Assembly (NCBI GenBank): GCA_003554235.1
Contig: PWFY01000024.1
Coordinates: 1-16,539 of the forward strand
From: Candidatus Aenigmatarchaeota archaeon
GTDB lineage: Archaea; Aenigmatarchaeota; Aenigmatarchaeia; PWEA01
Direction: 5' to 3'
DNA: 16,539 nucleotides
Of this stretch, positions 1-15,811 are shown piece after piece. Both the position numbers and the translations under genes were made by a program. The notes under the pieces are model-generated. The model saw only the letters and a program-made list of their open reading frames with translations, made no database searches and was not told the DNA's origin. Position 1 is the first letter of the stretch, and each line of letters starts with the position of its first letter.

Positions 1-958
1 AGATGTGGTGGAAGATATAGACAGTCTTGACGATGAAGCAAAGGAGAAGCTGTTTGAGAAGGACGGTCTGGTTATCCGAAGAAAGGACTTCGAAGATGTG
101 AACAGGCCCAAACCAAGAATAGTTGTGAACAACCACGAGGGAAGAGAAGAGCTTCATGTATCCGACTTCACAGAGTTCTACCTTGAAAGGTTCGAGTTTC
201 TTAAAGACGAGGTTAGAAACAGGCTGGACGGCGAAGAAATATCATCTATAAACAACGTTTCTTCAGGCAAGACATCTGTAATAGGGATGGTCAGAAAGGT
301 AGATGATGGAAAAGTTTTGCTTGAGGACAAGACAGGTGAACTTATACTTAAAACAGACAAAAAGTTTCTAGAGGATGAAGTTGTCGGTGTAAAGGGAAGG
401 GTCATAAGGAACGAAGATGTGACGATGAGCCCTGAAAAAATTATCTACCCCGACGTTCCTCTAAGCAAGGAAGTCAGGACACTCGACGATGACCTAAAGG
501 CCTTGTTTGTATCTGAGGTAAATGAAAAAATAGAGAATCTTGTGGAAGAGAAGGAAATTGACTATGTCTTTTCTACATCCAAGGACTCTCCGGATAATGT
601 TGTCCATATATCCAACGAAGCAGGCGAGCTCTCTGATATAGACCCTGTAAGATGTGACCTTGGAGAACTGAGAATTCTAATCCACAACGGCGATTCCGTA
701 AAGAAGGCAGAGGATTCCCTGGACTTGGACAGAAGAGAGGCCCTTATATCCATTCTAAAAAGAAGACATCTCGATCCTATAGAGATGCATTCTCTCAACG
801 ACAGATATCTCCTGAGAAAGGTGCCGGATATAGTTCATGTCTCAGACGATGAAGGTATTTCGGTGAACTACAAGGGTGTTACTCTAGTCTCAACAACAGA
901 AAACAGGGCATACATCATTAACCTAAAAACAAGGGATGTAGAAGAGGTTGAGCTTTGA
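1..958 (+). CDS. PolD small subunit (DP1)-like B-subunit, phosphoesterase motifs lost; 5' end cut by window
   Basis: The frame is open from the window edge; a GTG at 5 is the first candidate start seen, but the true start is probably upstream. Numbering from that GTG gives 317 residues. Residues ~50-75 resemble the DP1 linker (DFTEFYLERF), 85-150 look like the OB fold ending in YPDVPLSKEV (a DP1 hallmark before the phosphoesterase domain), and 165-317 align with the phosphoesterase domain: NVVHISNEA, ELRILIHNG, ILKRRHLDPI and VPDIVH match DP1 landmarks. The metal-binding motifs are gone: SDIHVGS reads SEVNEK, the segment holding the GD motif is collapsed, GNHD is not found, and GHVH reads SDDEG. 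Family knowledge: DP1 is the 3'-5' exonuclease subunit of PolD and homologue of the catalytically dead eukaryotic B-subunits. Inference: a non-catalytic structural subunit, possibly for the polB that follows 83 bases downstream. It could instead be a decaying PolD paralogue, but the frame is intact. Confidence 0.8.
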   Translation, partial: DVVEDIDSLDDEAKEKLFEKDGLVIRRKDFEDVNRPKPRIVVNNHEGREELHVSDFTEFYLERFEFLKDEVRNRLDGEEISSINNVSSGKTSVIGMVRKVDDGKVLLEDKTGELILKTDKKFLEDEVVGVKGRVIRNEDVTMSPEKIIYPDVPLSKEVRTLDDDLKALFVSEVNEKIENLVEEKEIDYVFSTSKDSPDNVVHISNEAGELSDIDPVRCDLGELRILIHNGDSVKKAEDSLDLDRREALISILKRRHLDPIEMHSLNDRYLLRKVPDIVHVSDDEGISVNYKGVTLVSTTENRAYIINLKTRDVEEVEL

Positions 959-1010
959 ACTATTGGGAGTTTAATAACTGTTTCCGTATATTAGTCTCAG
1001 TGAACAAATG

Positions 1011-1020
1011 TATTTTATTA
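1011..1020 (+). promoter_or_regulatory. Putative TATA box of polB
   Basis: TATTTTATTA is centred about 26 bases upstream of the ATG at 1042, the spacing expected for an archaeal leaderless transcript. It lies in the 83-base gap after the DP1-like gene, so polB may have its own promoter as well as read-through from upstream. Confidence 0.5.
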
Positions 1021-1041
1021 AAGAAGAAGAATGTTGGTAAC

Positions 1042-3774
1042 ATGAAGATTCAAATCCTCGACGTCGACTATAAGATGGTAAACAGCCATCCTGTGGTGAG
1101 GATTTTTGGTAAGACGGAGGAAGGCGAGCCCGTGTGTGTCCTCGACAATGACTTCAGACCCTATTTTTACTGTCATCCTGAAAACACAAACGGATCCAAG
1201 GACGAGATTCTTGAGCTTATAGAGGAGGAGTTTTCCGGCGCAGTAGAGAAAATAGAGGAGGTTGAAAAATATTCTCCTATAAAATACGACCCCGAAAAGA
1301 AAAAAATACTGAAGATAGTTCTAAGAAACCCTTCCCATGTCAGGGAGATGAGGGAGTATCTCAGAGATAAGCCTCCTGTAAAGGATCTTTACGAGACGGA
1401 CATACTCTATAAATATAGGTATCTGATAGACCATGATTCCGGAGGGATGCGCTGGGTTGAGGTAGACGGTAAGTACGTCGATACAGATGTGGTGGACTGT
1501 AAGGCCATAGAGGCCGAAAGCATCGAGCCTCTGGACATGAAAAAAAATGTCGACCTGAGATATCTTTCCTTTGATATAGAGTGTATAGCACAGGAAGAAG
1601 GTAGAATGGTAGACGCCAAAAAAGATCCTATAGTTCTTATATCATGTTCTTTCCAGCCTGAATACAAGGGGAATAAAAACATGGTCCTTGTTGCCAAACC
1701 AGGCAGTACAACAGGACGGCATTTTAGCGACGAGAAGGAGATGCTCGAGGAGTTTCTGGAAATACTCGACGACTTCGATCCGGATGTAATAACAGGCTAC
1801 AATGTAGAAGACTTTGATCTTTCCTACCTCCTTGAAAGACTTGATAAGCATGATCTCAAAAAGAACTTCGGCAGATGTGAAAAGAATGTGTATGCCAACA
1901 AATATGGCAACAACACGGACATCAAAATAGTTGGAAGGATTGTGGCAGACCCCTACATAATACTAAAGAACGATGTCTACCATAGGATGATGCGCTACGA
2001 CCTAGACACAGTGTCCGAGGAGCTTCTCGGTGAGAACAAGGAGGATGTTGAGTACGACGAGATGAAGGAGCTCTGGAGATCAAGCGGGAAGGACCTCCAA
2101 CGTTTTGTGGACTACTGTGAAAAGGACGCAGAGTTAGCACTCTCACTTTTGACAGAAAAAAGCCTTTTGGATAAGTTTTTTGAGCTTGCCAAGACCTCCA
2201 GACTTGTTCTAAACGACTGTTTTGGAGGCCAAACACAGCGTGTAAGTAACATGCTCCTTTATGAGTTCAAACAGAGGGACTTTGTTTTCCCTGAGAAACC
2301 AACAGGCGACGAGATGGAGAGGAGAAACGAGAGGAGACAGAAGGAGGCGTTGAAGGGAGGTCTGGTGCTCGAGCCAGAGAAAGGGCTCCATACCGACTAC
2401 TGTATATCTGTGCTCGACTTCAAGTCTCTGTACCCGTCTATAATGAGTACCTACAATATATGTCCCACGACCCTTGTCGAGAGTCTGGAAGAATACGGAC
2501 TTACGGAGGATGATGTGCACGAGGCTCCTGCCGGAGGTTACTTTGTAAAGGAAGAAAAAAGGAAGGGAATACTTGCAAAGACCGTCGAAGATCTCATAGA
2601 TGCGAGAAGCGAGGTTAAAAAAGAGATGGCTAAAGCAAAGGATGAAGGAGATATGGACGAGTACAACCGCCTGGATGCAAAACAGCTTGCTATAAAGATA
2701 ATGACAAACAGCTTATACGGTTACACAGGTTACTACAGGACAAGACTGTACAGACTGGAGATAGCCAATGCCATTACTGCATGGGGCAGAGAAACCATAG
2801 AGAAGACCGAAAAAATGATAGAGGATGAGTTCGGATACAGGACAGTGTACGGTGATACAGACTCTGTGATGATAGACGCCGAAACAAAGAATCTGGACAA
2901 GGCCCATAAAATTTCCCAGGACGTATCAGAGTTTATAACGGAGAAACTTCCCGGAAGGTTGATACTTGAGCCCGAGAAGATATACAGATCCTTCTTGATC
3001 TTAACTAAGAAAAGGTATGCAGGATGGGCCTTTGAGAAAAGTGGTGATGAATGGGAAGAGAAGATAGATATGAAGGGCATAGAGACGGTCAGAAGGGACT
3101 GGCCTTCTATAGTTTCAAAGACCATGGAGGAGGTCATTGATATAATCCTAAAGGAGGGTGATATAAACAAGGCCATAGAACATGTGCAGACAGTAGCAGA
3201 AAGACTTTCAAAAGGCGACGTTCCACTTGAAGAGTTGGCCGTAGTCAAGTCAATAACAAAAAGGCTTGATAGGTATGACGGCGTGCTTCCTCATATAGAG
3301 CTTGCAAAAAAGATCAAGAGAAGGGATCCTGCAAACCCACCTTCCCCGGGAGACAGGATACCGTATGTAATAATCAAAGGCAACCAGATGCTATCAAAGA
3401 GGGTCGAACATCCCGACTACATAAAGGAAAAGGGTCTGGACGTGGACTCCAGTTACTACATTAATTCCCAGCTTCTTCCTCCGTTGGAGAGAATATTTGA
3501 AGTTATAGGCGTTGATAAACAGGAGCTTCTCGGCGGTGGCAGACAGAAGACCATGGACGAGATAATAAACGGCAATTCAGTTGAAAGGGAAAGAGATGTT
3601 ACTGTGGACAGGGACCCTCACAATAAGACAGTCGAAGAACTAAACGGATTTCAGTGTAAGGAGTGTAGAAAGGAGTTTAGAAGGGTCCCGTTGAAAGGGC
3701 GATGTTCCTGCGGCGGCGATATATACTGTGTTGGAAACGGTTCTATAGGCAAGAAGGTAAATATGGATGATTGA
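1042..3774 (+). CDS. polB: B-family DNA polymerase with C-terminal Zn-type module
   Basis: Replicative-type DNA polymerase with 3'-5' proofreading, 910 residues from ATG 1042. I chose this start because a TATA box lies 26 bases upstream and the protein then begins with MKIQILDVDY, a typical PolB N-terminus; the frame is open back to a TTG at 955, but that stretch is unlike the family. Exonuclease motifs: DIE (D178, E180), NxxxFD (N254, D259), YxxxD (Y358, D362). Polymerase motifs: A, DFKSLYPS (D459); B, KxxxNSLYG (K552, N556); C, YGDTDS (D605, D607). All catalytic residues are present and no intein is seen. The last ~45 residues hold C872, C875, C888, C890 and C896 within FRRVPLKG and CGG, resembling the C-terminal zinc finger of the PolD large subunit and the C-terminal domain of eukaryotic PolBs. 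Most archaeal PolBs end before this with a PIP-like tail. The stop overlaps the PAP2 gene by 8 bases. Confidence 0.96.
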   Translation: MKIQILDVDYKMVNSHPVVRIFGKTEEGEPVCVLDNDFRPYFYCHPENTNGSKDEILELIEEEFSGAVEKIEEVEKYSPIKYDPEKKKILKIVLRNPSHVREMREYLRDKPPVKDLYETDILYKYRYLIDHDSGGMRWVEVDGKYVDTDVVDCKAIEAESIEPLDMKKNVDLRYLSFDIECIAQEEGRMVDAKKDPIVLISCSFQPEYKGNKNMVLVAKPGSTTGRHFSDEKEMLEEFLEILDDFDPDVITGYNVEDFDLSYLLERLDKHDLKKNFGRCEKNVYANKYGNNTDIKIVGRIVADPYIILKNDVYHRMMRYDLDTVSEELLGENKEDVEYDEMKELWRSSGKDLQRFVDYCEKDAELALSLLTEKSLLDKFFELAKTSRLVLNDCFGGQTQRVSNMLLYEFKQRDFVFPEKPTGDEMERRNERRQKEALKGGLVLEPEKGLHTDYCISVLDFKSLYPSIMSTYNICPTTLVESLEEYGLTEDDVHEAPAGGYFVKEEKRKGILAKTVEDLIDARSEVKKEMAKAKDEGDMDEYNRLDAKQLAIKIMTNSLYGYTGYYRTRLYRLEIANAITAWGRETIEKTEKMIEDEFGYRTVYGDTDSVMIDAETKNLDKAHKISQDVSEFITEKLPGRLILEPEKIYRSFLILTKKRYAGWAFEKSGDEWEEKIDMKGIETVRRDWPSIVSKTMEEVIDIILKEGDINKAIEHVQTVAERLSKGDVPLEELAVVKSITKRLDRYDGVLPHIELAKKIKRRDPANPPSPGDRIPYVIIKGNQMLSKRVEHPDYIKEKGLDVDSSYYINSQLLPPLERIFEVIGVDKQELLGGGRQKTMDEIINGNSVERERDVTVDRDPHNKTVEELNGFQCKECRKEFRRVPLKGRCSCGGDIYCVGNGSIGKKVNMDD

Positions 3775-8076: not shown

Positions 8077-9810
8077 CTATAATCCTAAAAAGTCAAGGAA
8101 CCTTCCAAAAATCTCTTGTAGTGCCGTTGGACTCTCAAAAGTTCTTTCTGCTTGTTCGCTCTCTTCCTTCCAGTCCTTTTCTTGACTTTCCGTAATATTC
8201 TCCCCACTTTCTCCAGTTTCAACAACCTTAACTTCCTTTGTGAAGTCTTTCCTTTCATCTTCTTCTATTCTTATCCTATATGAGTAATTACCTGGTTCAG
8301 TTTCACTTTCTATCCTGTTTTTGAAACCAAGTGACTTATTTTCCCCTGGTTTTAGTTTAACTTTTCTTTCGTTGCCAGACCAACTTTCTTTGTTTACAGG
8401 CTGCTTGTCCTCGTATACATACGATCTGGCGGTGAAATTTTTACTCTCTTCATTTTTATTCCTCACCAAAAACAAAGATTCTAATTTCTCTCCCGCCCTC
8501 ACCTTTTCATCGTATTCAAAGATTTCAAATGCCCTTTCTTTATCTTCCTTTATCTTGTCATCATTTTTCACCTCTTCTATAGTTTCTCTGAAACTGTCTG
8601 CATCATCAGCCTTGACTTCAAAACTCCGATCCATGAACTCTACTTCCTCTAGCTCAACTTCCTCCACATCTTCATCATCTGTTTCTTGACAGAACATATC
8701 GCTTAAATCCCAATCATCTTCAGGAGGAACAACATATGCCTTTCCCTCTTCCATTATCTCTGTAACGGTTTTCGCGCCCAGGTCCTGAACCTCTGTCAGC
8801 TGGACAAGCGTGTAGAACTCATCATGATCCTCGACTATCCTCTTGGCTATTATTTCGCCTATGTTAATTATCTCAGTCAGCTCCTCCTTATCCGCTTCGT
8901 TTATGTTGATTCTTTGTACTTCCTCCTTACCACCTTCATCTTCTTCTGATTCTTCAAAGTGTGCCATAACGCTTTTGTTTTCGCCTATGGTTACTTCCAC
9001 CACCTCTTCATCACTATCGATATTTCCTGACCATCCATCAAACTCCCAGCCTTCATACGATTCAGCTTCAAGTTCTACGTTTTCACCCTCCTCGTATAGG
9101 TGCTCACCTTCCGAAGGGCTTGTGTTTCCTCCTCCGGAGACGGATATTTCCAAAATATACTCCTCAACATCTTCTCCGTTGTCGTCATCGTCTTCTTCAA
9201 CAGGCCAGTCTTCGGGCGGCTCTTCAGTTCCTAGCCAGGCAGAGCCTACTAGCAAATCTACTTCCAACTCACCCACATCGTCTTTTAAATTTCCACCTTC
9301 ATTTTCTGCCGTTTCATTGTCTGATGTGGTATAAATCACAAACTCTCCATATGGATCGCCATCATCTTCTTCAGGGGTAGTGGTATATTCATGGCTGATC
9401 TCTGTCCACTCATCTGTGTCAACAGTATACCAGTCTCCGTAGTCCCAGAAAAAACCGCCCTCCTCTCGTATACGAACTGAGGTATACCCAGTTCCTTTTA
9501 CCTTCAGTTTGGCATAGTAGGTTACTTCTTGGTCGCGGCCTCCTTTATGACTGAATTTTTGTCGCTCTTCATAGGGTCCCTTAAATGTATGTGGACCCAA
9601 CTTGAGCGCGTAATCACTGACTAGACCTTGTCCAGAATCTGACTGATCTGCTTGTGCACCTACTGTCCAGTTTTTAGGTACATCATCTTCCCACTTCTCA
9701 AAGAACTCGTTTTCGAGAAGATTGTCTCCATCCTCGTGTTTTGCCTGGATAGGAGAAGATAATAGTAGAAATACAGATAGAAGTGTGAGCACGGCTACAC
9801 CCTTCTTCAT
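8077..9810 (-). CDS. Secreted acidic multidomain protein with InlB-like repeat and ComEA-like HhH domain
   Basis: 577 residues. Residues 1-23 are a Sec signal peptide (KK, hydrophobic core, cleavage near IQA/K). Residues ~28-190 (NLLENEFFEKW...PKNWTV) resemble carbohydrate-binding-type jelly-roll domains. An Asp/Glu linker (195-217) follows. Residues 218-286 match the divergent InlB B-repeat pattern (ISVSGGGNTSPSEG, then YEEGENVELEAE, then GWEFDGWSG, ending MAHF). Residues 298-358 match ComEA: ININEADKEEL, a first hairpin INIGEIIAKRI and a second VQDLGAKTVTEI. An acidic segment and a CARDB-like beta domain (~428-530) follow. There are eight N-glycosylation sequons (N47, 165, 229, 278, 458, 491, 508, 538) and one Cys. 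No C-terminal anchor or sorting motif is seen, only an amphipathic FGRFLDFLGL end. Inference: an exported cell-surface or extracellular protein able to bind DNA and perhaps glycans. Exact function unknown. Confidence 0.75.
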   Translation of the reverse strand: MKKGVAVLTLLSVFLLLSSPIQAKHEDGDNLLENEFFEKWEDDVPKNWTVGAQADQSDSGQGLVSDYALKLGPHTFKGPYEERQKFSHKGGRDQEVTYYAKLKVKGTGYTSVRIREEGGFFWDYGDWYTVDTDEWTEISHEYTTTPEEDDGDPYGEFVIYTTSDNETAENEGGNLKDDVGELEVDLLVGSAWLGTEEPPEDWPVEEDDDDNGEDVEEYILEISVSGGGNTSPSEGEHLYEEGENVELEAESYEGWEFDGWSGNIDSDEEVVEVTIGENKSVMAHFEESEEDEGGKEEVQRININEADKEELTEIINIGEIIAKRIVEDHDEFYTLVQLTEVQDLGAKTVTEIMEEGKAYVVPPEDDWDLSDMFCQETDDEDVEEVELEEVEFMDRSFEVKADDADSFRETIEEVKNDDKIKEDKERAFEIFEYDEKVRAGEKLESLFLVRNKNEESKNFTARSYVYEDKQPVNKESWSGNERKVKLKPGENKSLGFKNRIESETEPGNYSYRIRIEEDERKDFTKEVKVVETGESGENITESQEKDWKEESEQAERTFESPTALQEIFGRFLDFLGL

Positions 9811-12462: not shown

Positions 12463-12472
12463 CTTTATTTTT
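12463..12472 (+). terminator. T-rich terminator after tRNA-Trp
   Basis: CTTTATTTTT follows two bases after A73. It overlaps the last codons of the convergent antiporter gene on the other strand. Confidence 0.45.
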
Positions 12473-14117
12473 CGAAGTCGTCTATATTTCTCTTCAGTTT
12501 TCCGAGCATCTCCCCTCGCATCCTTTTCACAGTTTCCTTGTCGCCGTAGATAGCTTCCTCGACGTAGTCTATCAGCTGCTCCGACGCCAGGAGGTCGGGA
12601 ACCATGACGTAGTCCGCGCCTCCTTCTATAAGCTTCCGGGCGATATTAAAGCTGTTGGAGCGCACGACCTTCCTCGCATCTGTGTCCAAAGACAGGATTT
12701 TCTCGGAAACATGTTTCTGTGGAGGAGTTGATATTATAAGCTTCGCGTCTTTGTAGTTTGCCTTCTCCCAGGACTCGTTGTCCATGGCACTTTTGAATAC
12801 ACAGTTTTCCAACCCATCAGCTTCTTCCAACATCTCCGGATTCAGCTCTATGACTACAAATTCCTCTCCCTTCTCCTTTAGGAAATCACCTAATCTACTA
12901 CCCTGGACATCGTAACCCACGATTATTACATGGTCCTTGAGATTTGTGTTTATTCTGGTATGATATCTCTTGATTTTCTCGGGTGTCTCAAAGGGAAGTC
13001 TATCCGCTATAATGTTCTGTATCTTGTCCGAATATCTATCGGTGTAAGACGTGGTTATCATCGTTACAGTGGTGGCTAGTATTATTCCCTGGAATACAGG
13101 GGCAGCTATTGCACTTATCAGGTAGGCCTGTACGGCTATTATTAGAACAAACTCACTTACCTGGTCCAATGTAAGTGCACACCTGTAAGCCGTCCTCTTA
13201 TCGTAACCGTAGTGCATCAGTGAAATAGCAGTTAGCAGGGGCTTTACGAAAACAGTTACGAGTATGATGAGAAGTGCTATACCCAGGGTTGCGGCATCCG
13301 GAACTGTAACTAGAGCTCCTAGAGAGAAGAAGAAAACTGCGGCAAAAAAGTCTTTCAGCGACTCCATGCTTTCTACCAGTTCTATGTTGTAGGGGAACCT
13401 TGAGAAGGCGAGTCCTGCAAAGAAGGCACCTACAACTATGGATATCCCCGCGAGCTGTGATATTGCTATCATCACGGCAAGCAGCGAGATCCCGGAAAGG
13501 AGCATCAGTTCCTCGGAATGATCGGAAAGCTCAAAAAGCCAGGGAAATAGGAATCTTCTGAAAGCCAAGGAGAGAACAAGCATTCCCCCGCCCACGGCCA
13601 GGGCGTAGCCTATGCCTACGCTGAAGAGAACAGGGCTTAACAACAAAATAAGAACTATCGCCAGAATATCGTGTATAACGTCCGTAGCTTCTGCAAGCCT
13701 TCCGTAGAGGAGTTCTATGGTGGCGTACTTTTCCGATAGCTCCGTTCCTGTCAGAGAAGAGCTGAATACAAGAGCGGCGCTTATGTATATCGAGTTCAGT
13801 GTTCCAAAACCCGCAAGATACAGCGCCCCGAAAAATCCTAGTCCTAACCCGGTTATCTGTGCACCCGTGCTTAGCAGGCTTCCACCTATACCGTGCTTGA
13901 GTTTACCGGGCTCCAACTTGGCTCCGAAGATAAATACAACGAAGGCTATACCCCACTGGAGTAGTTCCAGCAGTCCCTCCTCCGTTAGGAAGATACCGCC
14001 TATAAGGCCTGCTATTATGTATGCCGGGATGGTGAGCTTGAAGAGCTTGTGGAATACAAACAACAGTATAGCCGAAAGCATGAAAACAGCCGCGAAGGTG
14101 TATATGACTCCTATCAT
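12465..14117 (-). CDS. CPA2/Kef-type cation:proton antiporter with TrkA-N-like domain (second of pair)
   Basis: 550 residues. Residues 1-375 are about 12 membrane segments of the monovalent cation:proton antiporter-2 fold. The TM-embedded acidic residue is D150 in EATDVIHDILAIV; other family elements are GAFFAGLAFSRFPY (230-243) and the TLDQVSEF loop (316-323). Residues ~394-520 are a TrkA-N/RCK-like Rossmann domain starting DHVIIVGYDVQGSR. The glycine-rich loop is altered (GYGxxG becomes GYDxxG), and the GD that normally follows the fourth strand is missing, so nucleotide gating may differ. No TrkA-C domain is present. Expected role: K+ or Na+ exchange for protons at the membrane. The ATG overlaps the stop of the upstream paralogue by 4 bases, so the two are translationally coupled. 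Confidence 0.85.
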   Translation of the reverse strand: MIGVIYTFAAVFMLSAILLFVFHKLFKLTIPAYIIAGLIGGIFLTEEGLLELLQWGIAFVVFIFGAKLEPGKLKHGIGGSLLSTGAQITGLGLGFFGALYLAGFGTLNSIYISAALVFSSSLTGTELSEKYATIELLYGRLAEATDVIHDILAIVLILLLSPVLFSVGIGYALAVGGGMLVLSLAFRRFLFPWLFELSDHSEELMLLSGISLLAVMIAISQLAGISIVVGAFFAGLAFSRFPYNIELVESMESLKDFFAAVFFFSLGALVTVPDAATLGIALLIILVTVFVKPLLTAISLMHYGYDKRTAYRCALTLDQVSEFVLIIAVQAYLISAIAAPVFQGIILATTVTMITTSYTDRYSDKIQNIIADRLPFETPEKIKRYHTRINTNLKDHVIIVGYDVQGSRLGDFLKEKGEEFVVIELNPEMLEEADGLENCVFKSAMDNESWEKANYKDAKLIISTPPQKHVSEKILSLDTDARKVVRSNSFNIARKLIEGGADYVMVPDLLASEQLIDYVEEAIYGDKETVKRMRGEMLGKLKRNIDDFEK

Positions 14118-15811
14118 AGTCTCGCCTCCCAGTCTATTATCTGTTTGTCGCCTTCTACGGCTTCGTCGAAGGTTTCAGGATCCTCAAGGAATGATTCGAT
14201 GTACTCCGTCATTTTTTCAGCTGACAACAGCCTCTTTATTATTACAAAGTCTGCGCCCAGGTCGTAAAGCCCCGCAGCATCGTCTCTGTCCTTTGCCCGG
14301 AGGAATGTTATGGCATCTTCCTTCTTATCACTTAGTACCCTCCTGTTTACGGCGTCTTCCATTGCCATACTGACTATTACATTTGCTCTCTTAAGGCCTA
14401 TGGATCTTCTCATTTCCTCGTGTTTCAGATCGCCGAATACGAACTCTGCGCCGGATTCCCTCAGCATCTCCACATACTCCGGATTTTTATCTATAACGAC
14501 GACGTCGCCGTACCTTTCCTTTAGGACCGGAACCAGCCGACGTGTTATCTCGTTGTAACCAACAATAATAGCGTGGTCCTCTAGTATCTTTATGTCCACA
14601 TCGCCTTTCTCCTCTGACTCCATAAATTCAAAGAGATGTTTTACACGGTCGTATATCTCATGGTTGTACTTTATTATATAGGCCGAAATACCCATAGTCA
14701 TGATCGCCATAAGGCTGAGGTAACCCAGGATTTCATTTCCAACCAATCCTCTGCTTACTGTGAGAGCTCCGACTACTAGGGAGAACTCGCTGACCTGTAC
14801 CATATTTATGCTTCCTAGGAAGGAGGTTTCAGGGCTGAACTTCTCCCTGTCTATTAGGTATAGCATTATAATGAAGTTACCCACCATCAGTAGACTTGAA
14901 GCTATTATAGCTTCCTTCCAGTAAACGGTCAGGTATTCTGGTGCCAGTCCAAGTCCTATGGTGGCGAAGAAAACCATCATAAAGAAGTCCGTCAAGGGCT
15001 TGACCTGCTGCTTTAGCTCATCGCTATAAGGGCTCTGTGCCAGACCGAGTCCTGCTATGAATGCACCGACCTCTACCGGTACATCAAGTGCCAGGGAAAC
15101 TCCGATGAACAGAAATGCCCACGCCGCGCCGTTTATGAAAAGAAGGTGTTTGTTTTTGCCCACTTCTCTCACAACCTTCGGCACCATCCATCTGGATACA
15201 GCATATGAAAATACACCAAGAACTGCCATCACACCCATTACCTGGAAGAAGTTTATGGCTATAGGCACAGGGTTCGTGAGATCGGGCGCACTGAACAATG
15301 TCAGGTAAACAACCAGTATTATGTCCTGTACTATGAGCACGCCTACATCTATTTTACCCGGAAGAGAGGTTATCTCATCTTTTTCGTCCAACAGTTTAAC
15401 AATAACGGGTGTCGCACCGAATACTGTACATAATGCCATGACGATAACTTCAACCATGGCGAACCCAAGAAAGTAGTATATCACGAATGCCAGGGAGGTC
15501 TGCAGAACGGTCTGCCAGAAGGAAATCTTCAGTATGGGTTTCAGTATATTTTTTATAGCATCAAACTTTAACTGCAGTCCCAGAAGAAATAGAAGGAATG
15601 CCAGGCCCAGTTCGGACATGAGCTCGAGGAGCGCAGTTTCCTGCACAATGTTTAGAAAAACAGGACCGAGAACCAGTCCAGTAATAAGATATGCTATCAG
15701 GTTAGGCTGGTAGGTCTTGTGTGCTATGTAGCCCAAAACGGTCGCGACCGTAATCAACAACACGAAGTCCCATGTTATGAATAGACCTTCTGTTATGGCT
15801 ATGTCGAACAT
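14114..15811 (-). CDS. CPA2/Kef-type cation:proton antiporter with TrkA-N-like domain (first of pair)
   Basis: 565 residues, paralogous to the next gene. Membrane domain ~15-380 contains GLVLGP (45-50), the TM hairpin LLFLLGLQLKFD, the Q162-D163 pair in VLIVQDIILVV corresponding to the KefC ion-binding QD site, and VGAFIAGLGLAQSPYSDEL (248-266). The Rossmann domain (~411-540) starts DHAIIVGYNEITRR, again with a broken glycine loop, but the downstream GDLKHEEMRRSIGLKRAN segment is canonical for TrkA-N. No TrkA-C domain. It leads a two-gene operon (ATGA overlap). The paired, diverged paralogues suggest a heteromeric transporter, as CPA2 proteins are dimers. Ion specificity and polarity cannot be read from the sequence. 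Confidence 0.87.
   Translation of the reverse strand: MFDIAITEGLFITWDFVLLITVATVLGYIAHKTYQPNLIAYLITGLVLGPVFLNIVQETALLELMSELGLAFLLFLLGLQLKFDAIKNILKPILKISFWQTVLQTSLAFVIYYFLGFAMVEVIVMALCTVFGATPVIVKLLDEKDEITSLPGKIDVGVLIVQDIILVVYLTLFSAPDLTNPVPIAINFFQVMGVMAVLGVFSYAVSRWMVPKVVREVGKNKHLLFINGAAWAFLFIGVSLALDVPVEVGAFIAGLGLAQSPYSDELKQQVKPLTDFFMMVFFATIGLGLAPEYLTVYWKEAIIASSLLMVGNFIIMLYLIDREKFSPETSFLGSINMVQVSEFSLVVGALTVSRGLVGNEILGYLSLMAIMTMGISAYIIKYNHEIYDRVKHLFEFMESEEKGDVDIKILEDHAIIVGYNEITRRLVPVLKERYGDVVVIDKNPEYVEMLRESGAEFVFGDLKHEEMRRSIGLKRANVIVSMAMEDAVNRRVLSDKKEDAITFLRAKDRDDAAGLYDLGADFVIIKRLLSAEKMTEYIESFLEDPETFDEAVEGDKQIIDWEARL

Follow-up and report, generated by a model that had tools for sequence, protein, structure and literature searches.

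How eukaryotes came to replicate with catalytic subunits of DNA polymerase family B (PolB) bound to a dead subunit of the D-family polymerase (PolD) type is an open question. On contig PWFY01000024.1 of a Candidatus Aenigmatarchaeota archaeon (assembly GCA_003554235.1), a gene for a protein derived from DP1, the PolD small subunit, is followed by a PolB gene; the contig as a whole, 16,539 nucleotides in length, is the window analysed here. The first-pass annotation of the window proposed that the two products form a eukaryote-like holoenzyme, consisting of an inactive B-subunit and a PolB with a C-terminal docking domain. Very probably, these genes encode the main replicative polymerase of the archaeon, in which a PolB is docked to a non-catalytic DP1-derived scaffold via a zinc finger of the Zn-III type. 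The parts, their co-occurrence, the absence of DP2 (the catalytic subunit of PolD), the loss of nuclease ligands and a residue covariation are read from the sequences, and from these we infer the complex, its role as replicase, the binding to PCNA and the order of events.

The core idea of a PolB associated with an inactive DP1 after the loss of DP2 was already published by Kazlauskas et al. (2020). The accessible part of that paper (PMC7544198) describes a PolB group, B6, whose members have a single zinc motif (aenigma1) or a pair of them (aenigma2), reports that most Aenigmarchaeota are without DP2 and have an inactive DP1, presumes that the loss of DP1 activity was afforded by the exonuclease of the PolB itself, and places B6 with Pol alpha, delta and zeta in a Delta-like clade and the tails in a cluster with DP2 and Pol epsilon and alpha. 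Gene adjacency, operon structure, coevolution and the Baldrarchaeia go unmentioned in the accessible main text, and no later work on the PolB/DP1-like pair was found among the open-access matches listed. New here are a census with gene adjacency, a gradient of nuclease decay, an Arg-Asp covariation and the case of the Baldrarchaeia, a class of Asgard archaea.

The gene pair and its predicted contact

The DP1-like gene is cut at its 5' end, since the window is an entire contig, and the full-length relative P0011 (337 aa) has 19 more residues. The protein has no Pfam match at an E-value of 0.001, and matches the PolD small-subunit models of NCBIfam (best E 2.8e-22). Its family profile (A2, 41 rows) matches DP1 chains of known structure in the PDB (6knb_A at 2.4e-43, across profile positions 11-322 of 340), so that the homology spans the OB and phosphoesterase (PDE) domains over the full length; a weak match to Pol epsilon subunit 2 (1.5e-5) is also found. 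None of the eight PDE active-site ligands that characterise the PolD small subunit, as listed in the available text of PMC10721889, is kept. The mean column identity of 24% in A2 denotes fast sequence drift, and the OB and C-terminal motifs are conserved. A DP2, which would be encoded alongside a DP1 proper, was not found in the source genome of the window (G000; 560,609 bp, 77% complete). By its sequence, the DP1-like protein answers to the description of the inactive DP1-derived B-subunit of a eukaryote-type PolB holoenzyme.

Its neighbour, on the same strand and with 83 bp between stop codon and ATG, is a B-family polymerase (PF00136, 1.2e-111; PF03104, 4e-35) in which the exonuclease and polymerase motif residues are intact and invariant in all 28 aligned relatives. 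The closest named relative is the PolB of Candidatus Aenigmatarchaeota archaeon B1Sed10_69 (82% identical). In NCBIfam, the tail has matches to the C-terminal part of DP2 (1.4e-4 and 2e-4); when compared alone with the PDB at E-values up to 1, it matches three DP2 chains and nothing else (0.0036-0.0089), aligned to Zn-III. A profile of 18 such tails matches DP2 at 2e-10 to 8e-10, the next match being an adenylate kinase at 2e-4. A single Cys4 motif is present in the tail of the window's PolB, where a eukaryote-type holoenzyme has two metal motifs (CysA and CysB). With its intact core and exonuclease, one Zn-III-like motif, an aenigmatarchaeal host and no DP2, the window's PolB belongs to B6-aenigma1. 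In the six genomes of the window's genus one PolB match per genome was found, with no DP2 and no second PolB. A DP1-like protein, predicted to be inactive, beside a PolB with a C-terminal domain, as first annotated, is thus confirmed by the absent ligands, the intact PolB motifs, the Cys4 finger and the close spacing.

In PolD, according to the available text of PMC6355029, the OB and PDE domains of DP1 enclose an electronegative groove that receives the Zn-III loop carrying R1131 and R1132, and nanomolar binding to DP1 is reported for a Zn-III peptide of 20 residues. The finger in the window has R880-R881 in the place of this Arg pair. In the 46 genomes of the discovery set, read at a fixed position, the Arg was accompanied by Asp at the column of Asp144 in the DP1-like protein (P0011 numbering) in 36/36 cases, and loss of the Arg by Asp in 1/10; the initial column scan, later recounted, had given 34/34 (with two further gaps) against 1/10, two pairs having been set aside by motif reading. 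A further 68 genomes, obtained after the hypothesis had been formed on the 46 and unused in the discovery scan, although some had appeared earlier among the homologues under different names, gave Asp in 42 of the 44 with the Arg and another residue in 20 of the 24 without it. Both residues were available in 114 of the 123 pairs found in the class, the others being dropped for a tail absent in the assembly (G119, G061, G064, G124 and G109) or a gap at the Asp column, and 107 of these 114 are concordant (p 1.1e-19). Each residue is the other's best partner in column scans taking in all 114 genomes, discovery set included: Asp144 ranks first among 255 DP1 columns (-log10 p 18.95, the next 5.09), and the second Arg of the finger first among 865 PolB columns (18.2), followed by the neighbouring Arg (9.4) and a column at 7.1. 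The first scan of acidic columns had returned five weaker columns besides Asp144.

On a quick tree built from the PolB core, with the tail removed, at least 19 changes are counted for each of the two traits. Among 15 supported independent contrasts about 10.5 go in the same direction, none in the opposite one and about 4.5 are undecided (sign p ~0.001). A family-stratified Cochran-Mantel-Haenszel test gives p 3.5e-9, and 63 of 68 pairs are concordant within eight mixed families. Asp also occupies the Asp144 column in 5/5 DP1s of family f10, the family with DP2 described below, in 3/3 Baldrarchaeial and in 8/8 reference DP1s. The covariation is good evidence for contact, suggesting that the PolB finger docks directly on the DP1-like protein, and it lends support to the first-pass idea of the C-terminal domain as a docking surface.

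In the proposed complex, the PolB subunit would both polymerise and proofread. Its C-terminal finger, probably descended from Zn-III of DP2, would plug into the OB-PDE groove of the DP1-like protein, where R881 would lie opposite Asp144 in the OB domain. A PIP-like peptide between core and finger presumably binds PCNA and would probably tether the PolB to it, and the DP1-like protein would be a non-catalytic scaffold comparable to a eukaryotic B-subunit. The PolB would have taken the place of DP2 and, with proofreading residing in the PolB, the DP1 nuclease would have decayed.

Distribution of the pair and decay of the DP1 nuclease

A total of 156 genomes of the class Aenigmatarchaeia were searched for DP2, B6 PolB and DP1. 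DP2 was found in ten, all members of family f10 (11 genomes), which was set apart from the co-occurrence counts. Among the 145 remaining genomes, PolB is encoded in 130, a DP1-like protein in 126 and both in 123, and this recurrence of both genes indicates that their pairing is not due to chance. DP2 was not detected in any of the 145, including the 38 which are at least 90% complete, by a search that was positive in three euryarchaea among 14 control genomes. Both genes occur in 36 of these 38 genomes, the DP1-like gene alone in one (G050), neither in one (G085) and PolB alone in none, so that the co-occurrence proposed as a check in the first-pass annotation is borne out. The DP1-like gene is located directly upstream of PolB on the same strand in 76 of the 123 pairs, adjacency being defined as less than 700 bp between profile matches.

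The PolB list omits seven genomes outside f10 whose sole match scores at most 607 bits (G050, G063, G067, G078, G120, G126 and G108), the match in G108 (E 3.5e-107) possibly being a fragment; G008, represented by fragments, was kept under a substitute score. G088 (E 4.8e-6) is left off the DP1 list, and weak matches to model NF003118 (e.g. G156, 4.7e-5) were not counted because this model also matches two control bacteria. A candidate fusion of the DP1-like and PolB genes in G008 (L118, 2183-5432, - strand) was rejected as it looks like an assembly fault: the DP1-like frame enters the PolB at about residue 112, the first ~110 PolB residues are missing and a later frame break follows. Several further observations concern the PolB genes themselves. 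The B6 PolB frames of G024, G054, G103, G111 and others extend to ~1250-1400 aa, with the polymerase domain interrupted as by inteins, and G056 (87% complete) has a divergent PolB only. In family f10 (L002-L007, L062-L070) the PolBs are mostly 772-783 aa in length (500 in G025, 1203 in G031), two falling with rows of the Thermococcus type. The B6 PolB of one metagenome-assembled genome (MAG) labelled Nanoarchaeota (L138, JAHIRU010000006.1) groups among the aenigmatarchaeal rows, and the label is probably wrong.

The state of the DP1 nuclease follows the same division. All eight ligands are present in each of the five f10 DP1s examined, and the number kept outside this family ranges from seven (two of three in f16) to none, as in the window among others. 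Of 49 DP1-like proteins considered, including that of G050 where no B6 PolB was found, two fragments (L087 and L109) end before motif III; the motif-III His is lost in 46 of the 47 that could be judged, 20 of the 47 having a gap at this column, and the sole His (L091) lies in a badly aligned region, none of the other PDE motifs being in place. A His-to-Ala change at motif III was used to make an exonuclease-dead Pyrococcus abyssi PolD, as described in the available text of PMC10721889. The eight reference DP1s, the genomes of which were unexamined, all have this His, and the Baldrarchaeial DP1s have lost motif III in 3/3 cases and keep the other six ligands. The expectation that loss of the nuclease accompanies the PolB accordingly holds in both groups.

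Several observations weigh against the pair as the main replicative polymerase. The genes are not tightly arranged in 47 of the 123 pairs, of which 36 share a contig (31 on opposite strands, mostly 1.4-5 kb apart) and 11 are on different contigs. Seven genomes have PolB with no DP1-like protein found, all of them at most 84% complete, three show the reverse and twelve have neither, among them G085, which is 96% complete and without a match for B6 PolB, DP1 or DP2. A second PolB of ~780-850 aa without the tail occurs in many families (e.g. L130 and L162); two second-PolB rows fall with the f10 and Thermococcus PolB rows in the tree. The Arg of the finger is lost in 34 of the 114 genomes, where the DP1 column holds Gly in 19, Asn in 7 and Asp in 5, and Asp is absent in two of the 80 genomes with the Arg; the Arg-Asp contact is therefore not indispensable, and the same covariation could result if some third partner had changed jointly. 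Finally, three of the eight reference DP1s are without one or two other ligands, and single losses are thus not unique to PolB-paired DP1.

Table 1. Features of the DP1-like and PolB genes in the window
Feature	Position	Strand	Remarks
DP1-like protein, PolD small-subunit-derived, predicted nuclease-dead, B-subunit candidate	2..958	+	318 codons
Segment matching positions 88-234 of PolD small-subunit model NF003118 (OB fold and following)	131..520	+	
Codon of OB Asp144 (P0011 numbering), covarying with the second Arg of the PolB finger	374..376	+	
Decayed PDE domain	521..955	+	0/8 active-site ligands remaining
B-family DNA polymerase, B6-aenigma1 type	1042..3774	+	910 aa from ATG; ATG likely, alternative TTG at 955
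3'-5' exonuclease domain (PF03104)	1384..2013	+	D178/E180 and N254/D259
Third exonuclease motif, just downstream of the PF03104 match	2113-2127	+	Y358/D362
Polymerase domain (PF00136)	2221..3507	+	D459, D605 and D607 present
PIP-box-like RQKTMDEI between core and finger	3541..3564	+	Gln835 invariant in 28/28
C-terminal Cys4 zinc finger, DP2 Zn-III-like	3655..3711	+	C872, C875, C888, C890
Putative docking motif R880-R881-V-P (cf. KxRRxP of DP2)	3679..3690	+	R881 codon 3682-3684

The next frame in the window, a PAP2-family gene, overlaps the final codons of the PolB gene. Further downstream, the window encodes a protein that combines a divergent InlB-type repeat with a ComEA-like helix-hairpin-helix (8077-9810, - strand) and a tandem pair of Na+/H+ exchanger plus TrkA-N (CPA2-type) proteins, whose genes overlap by four bases (12465-15811, - strand).

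The Baldrarchaeial relatives

A related PolB (41%) with two zinc motifs in its tail is encoded in a MAG labelled Odinarchaeota (L156; 4989-7949, + strand). Its closest named homologues, 96-97% identical, are from Candidatus Baldrarchaeia, and the PolB occurs in all four examined genomes of this class (also L211-L217), two copies having an intein-like insert in the polymerase domain; a single contaminating contig was rejected as its source on both of these grounds. The Baldrarchaeial PolBs are the sister of the aenigmatarchaeal B6 in a quick tree free of eukaryotic rows (joint support 99). They (L156, L213-L217) are probably of the aenigma2 kind, which in the accessible part of PMC7544198 comprises nine sequences from metagenomes. 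Those with a name are labelled Aenigmarchaeota or Thermofilum, and the nine are suspected to be Baldrarchaeial as well. A wide distribution among the Asgard archaea was considered and discarded, as the PolB is found in just 4 of 227 genomes of the phylum at E 1e-130.

DP2 was found in none of the four Baldrarchaeial genomes and DP1 in three, in each case on a different contig from the PolB and beside an Orc1/Cdc6-like gene (named by eye). Joint transfer of DP1 with PolB finds little favour: a clade of Baldrarchaeial DP1 and the DP1-like proteins is weakly rejected (approximately unbiased test, p 0.039), one of the DP1-like proteins with f10 DP1 is not (p 0.363), and these values lean against such a transfer, with long branches in play. 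From the Baldrarchaeial and aenigmatarchaeal patterns together, the same PolB seems to have been followed on two occasions by the loss of both DP2 and the nuclease.

Alternative readings and comparison with known systems

If the DP1-like protein were a decaying leftover of PolD that binds no polymerase, the PolB would act alone and its finger would have another role, such as DNA contact. The fast drift and the loss of all eight ligands in the window would agree with this; yet the protein is present in 126 of 145 genomes and directly upstream of PolB in 76, its OB and C-terminal motifs are conserved, and because of its covariation with the finger in 114 genomes this reading is disfavoured and regarded as very improbable. 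Less credible still, and close to negligible, is that it serves a DP2 missed in incomplete genomes, leaving the PolB as a repair enzyme. The window's genome is indeed incomplete, but the same search that detects DP2 in control euryarchaea returned none outside f10, even in the most complete genomes, and the B6 PolB is the only B- or D-family core found in the genus. A DP1-like protein pairing only with DP2, which the first-pass annotation had named as a refuting case, is disfavoured because DP2 is lacking. A pair that forms as a repair or translesion complex while another polymerase replicates is also improbable, if less so than the leftover: the second PolB in many families of the class would suit it, as would additional PolB matches of ~790-815 aa in three of the four Baldrarchaeial genomes, whereas the window's genus has no second PolB in six genomes and its exonuclease and polymerase motifs are intact.

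A different matter is whether the likeness of the replicative pair to the eukaryotic polymerases is due to descent, with the tails and B-subunits of Pol alpha and epsilon derived from a B6-type archaeal pair. The groupings reported in the accessible part of PMC7544198 are in favour, and the two-zinc Baldrarchaeial tail can be aligned with that of Pol epsilon (E 0.017 as a single sequence, 0.006 as a profile); the same tails, however, give a much stronger match to DP2 (9e-10), no Pol alpha or epsilon match at E <1 is obtained with the profile of window-type tails, and the PolB profile scores archaeal PolBs and Pol delta in the PDB alike (594 vs 590 bits). The rarity of the PolB among Asgard genomes also argues against descent, and independent capture or viral sources may account for the likeness; this derivation appears unlikely, though it is the least improbable of the alternatives. 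Marginally more doubtful is a wider scenario in which a B6 PolB with a DP2-derived tail entered at least two lineages, the Aenigmatarchaeota and the Asgard Baldrarchaeia, each time displacing DP2 and retaining the resident DP1 as docking partner with its nuclease off, and in which the Baldrarchaeial system, having a pair of zinc motifs and a DP1 altered at motif III alone, would represent an Asgard survivor of the transition that yielded the eukaryotic Pol alpha/epsilon tail and B-subunit.

For the origin of the eukaryotic arrangement, a two-subunit replicase of PolB and DP1-derived scaffold would mean that most of an archaeal class has made the same swap and that intermediate stages of nuclease decay are still visible in it. 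The predicted Arg881-Asp144 contact makes the presumed complex testable by mutant pairs, and the Baldrarchaeial system, should closed genomes confirm it, would add an Asgard example with two zinc motifs. The Pol epsilon-like PolB described for Hodarchaeales in 2025 (available text of PMC12395588) belongs to a different group.

Among known systems, the window's pair most closely resembles B6-aenigma1 as described in the accessible part of PMC7544198, sharing the exonuclease-bearing PolB core, one Zn-III-type motif, the inactive DP1, the absence of DP2 and the phylum, and no feature was found that separates it from this group. The Baldrarchaeial (aenigma2) system has a sister PolB clade, DP2 in 0/4 and DP1 in 3/4 genomes, but differs in its two zinc motifs, a DP1 with 6/8 ligands and genes on separate contigs in 3/3 cases. 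With archaeal PolD the pair shares a small subunit of OB and PDE domains and a Zn-III finger with Arg-Arg docking; unlike PolD, its catalytic subunit is a PolB rather than DP2, the exonuclease domain resides in the PolB and the PDE ligands are lost. The eukaryotic polymerases alpha, delta and epsilon likewise pair an inactive DP1-derived B-subunit with a PolB whose tail binds metal, whereas the tail in the window, in a pair known here from sequence, carries a single zinc motif and stops 20 residues beyond it.

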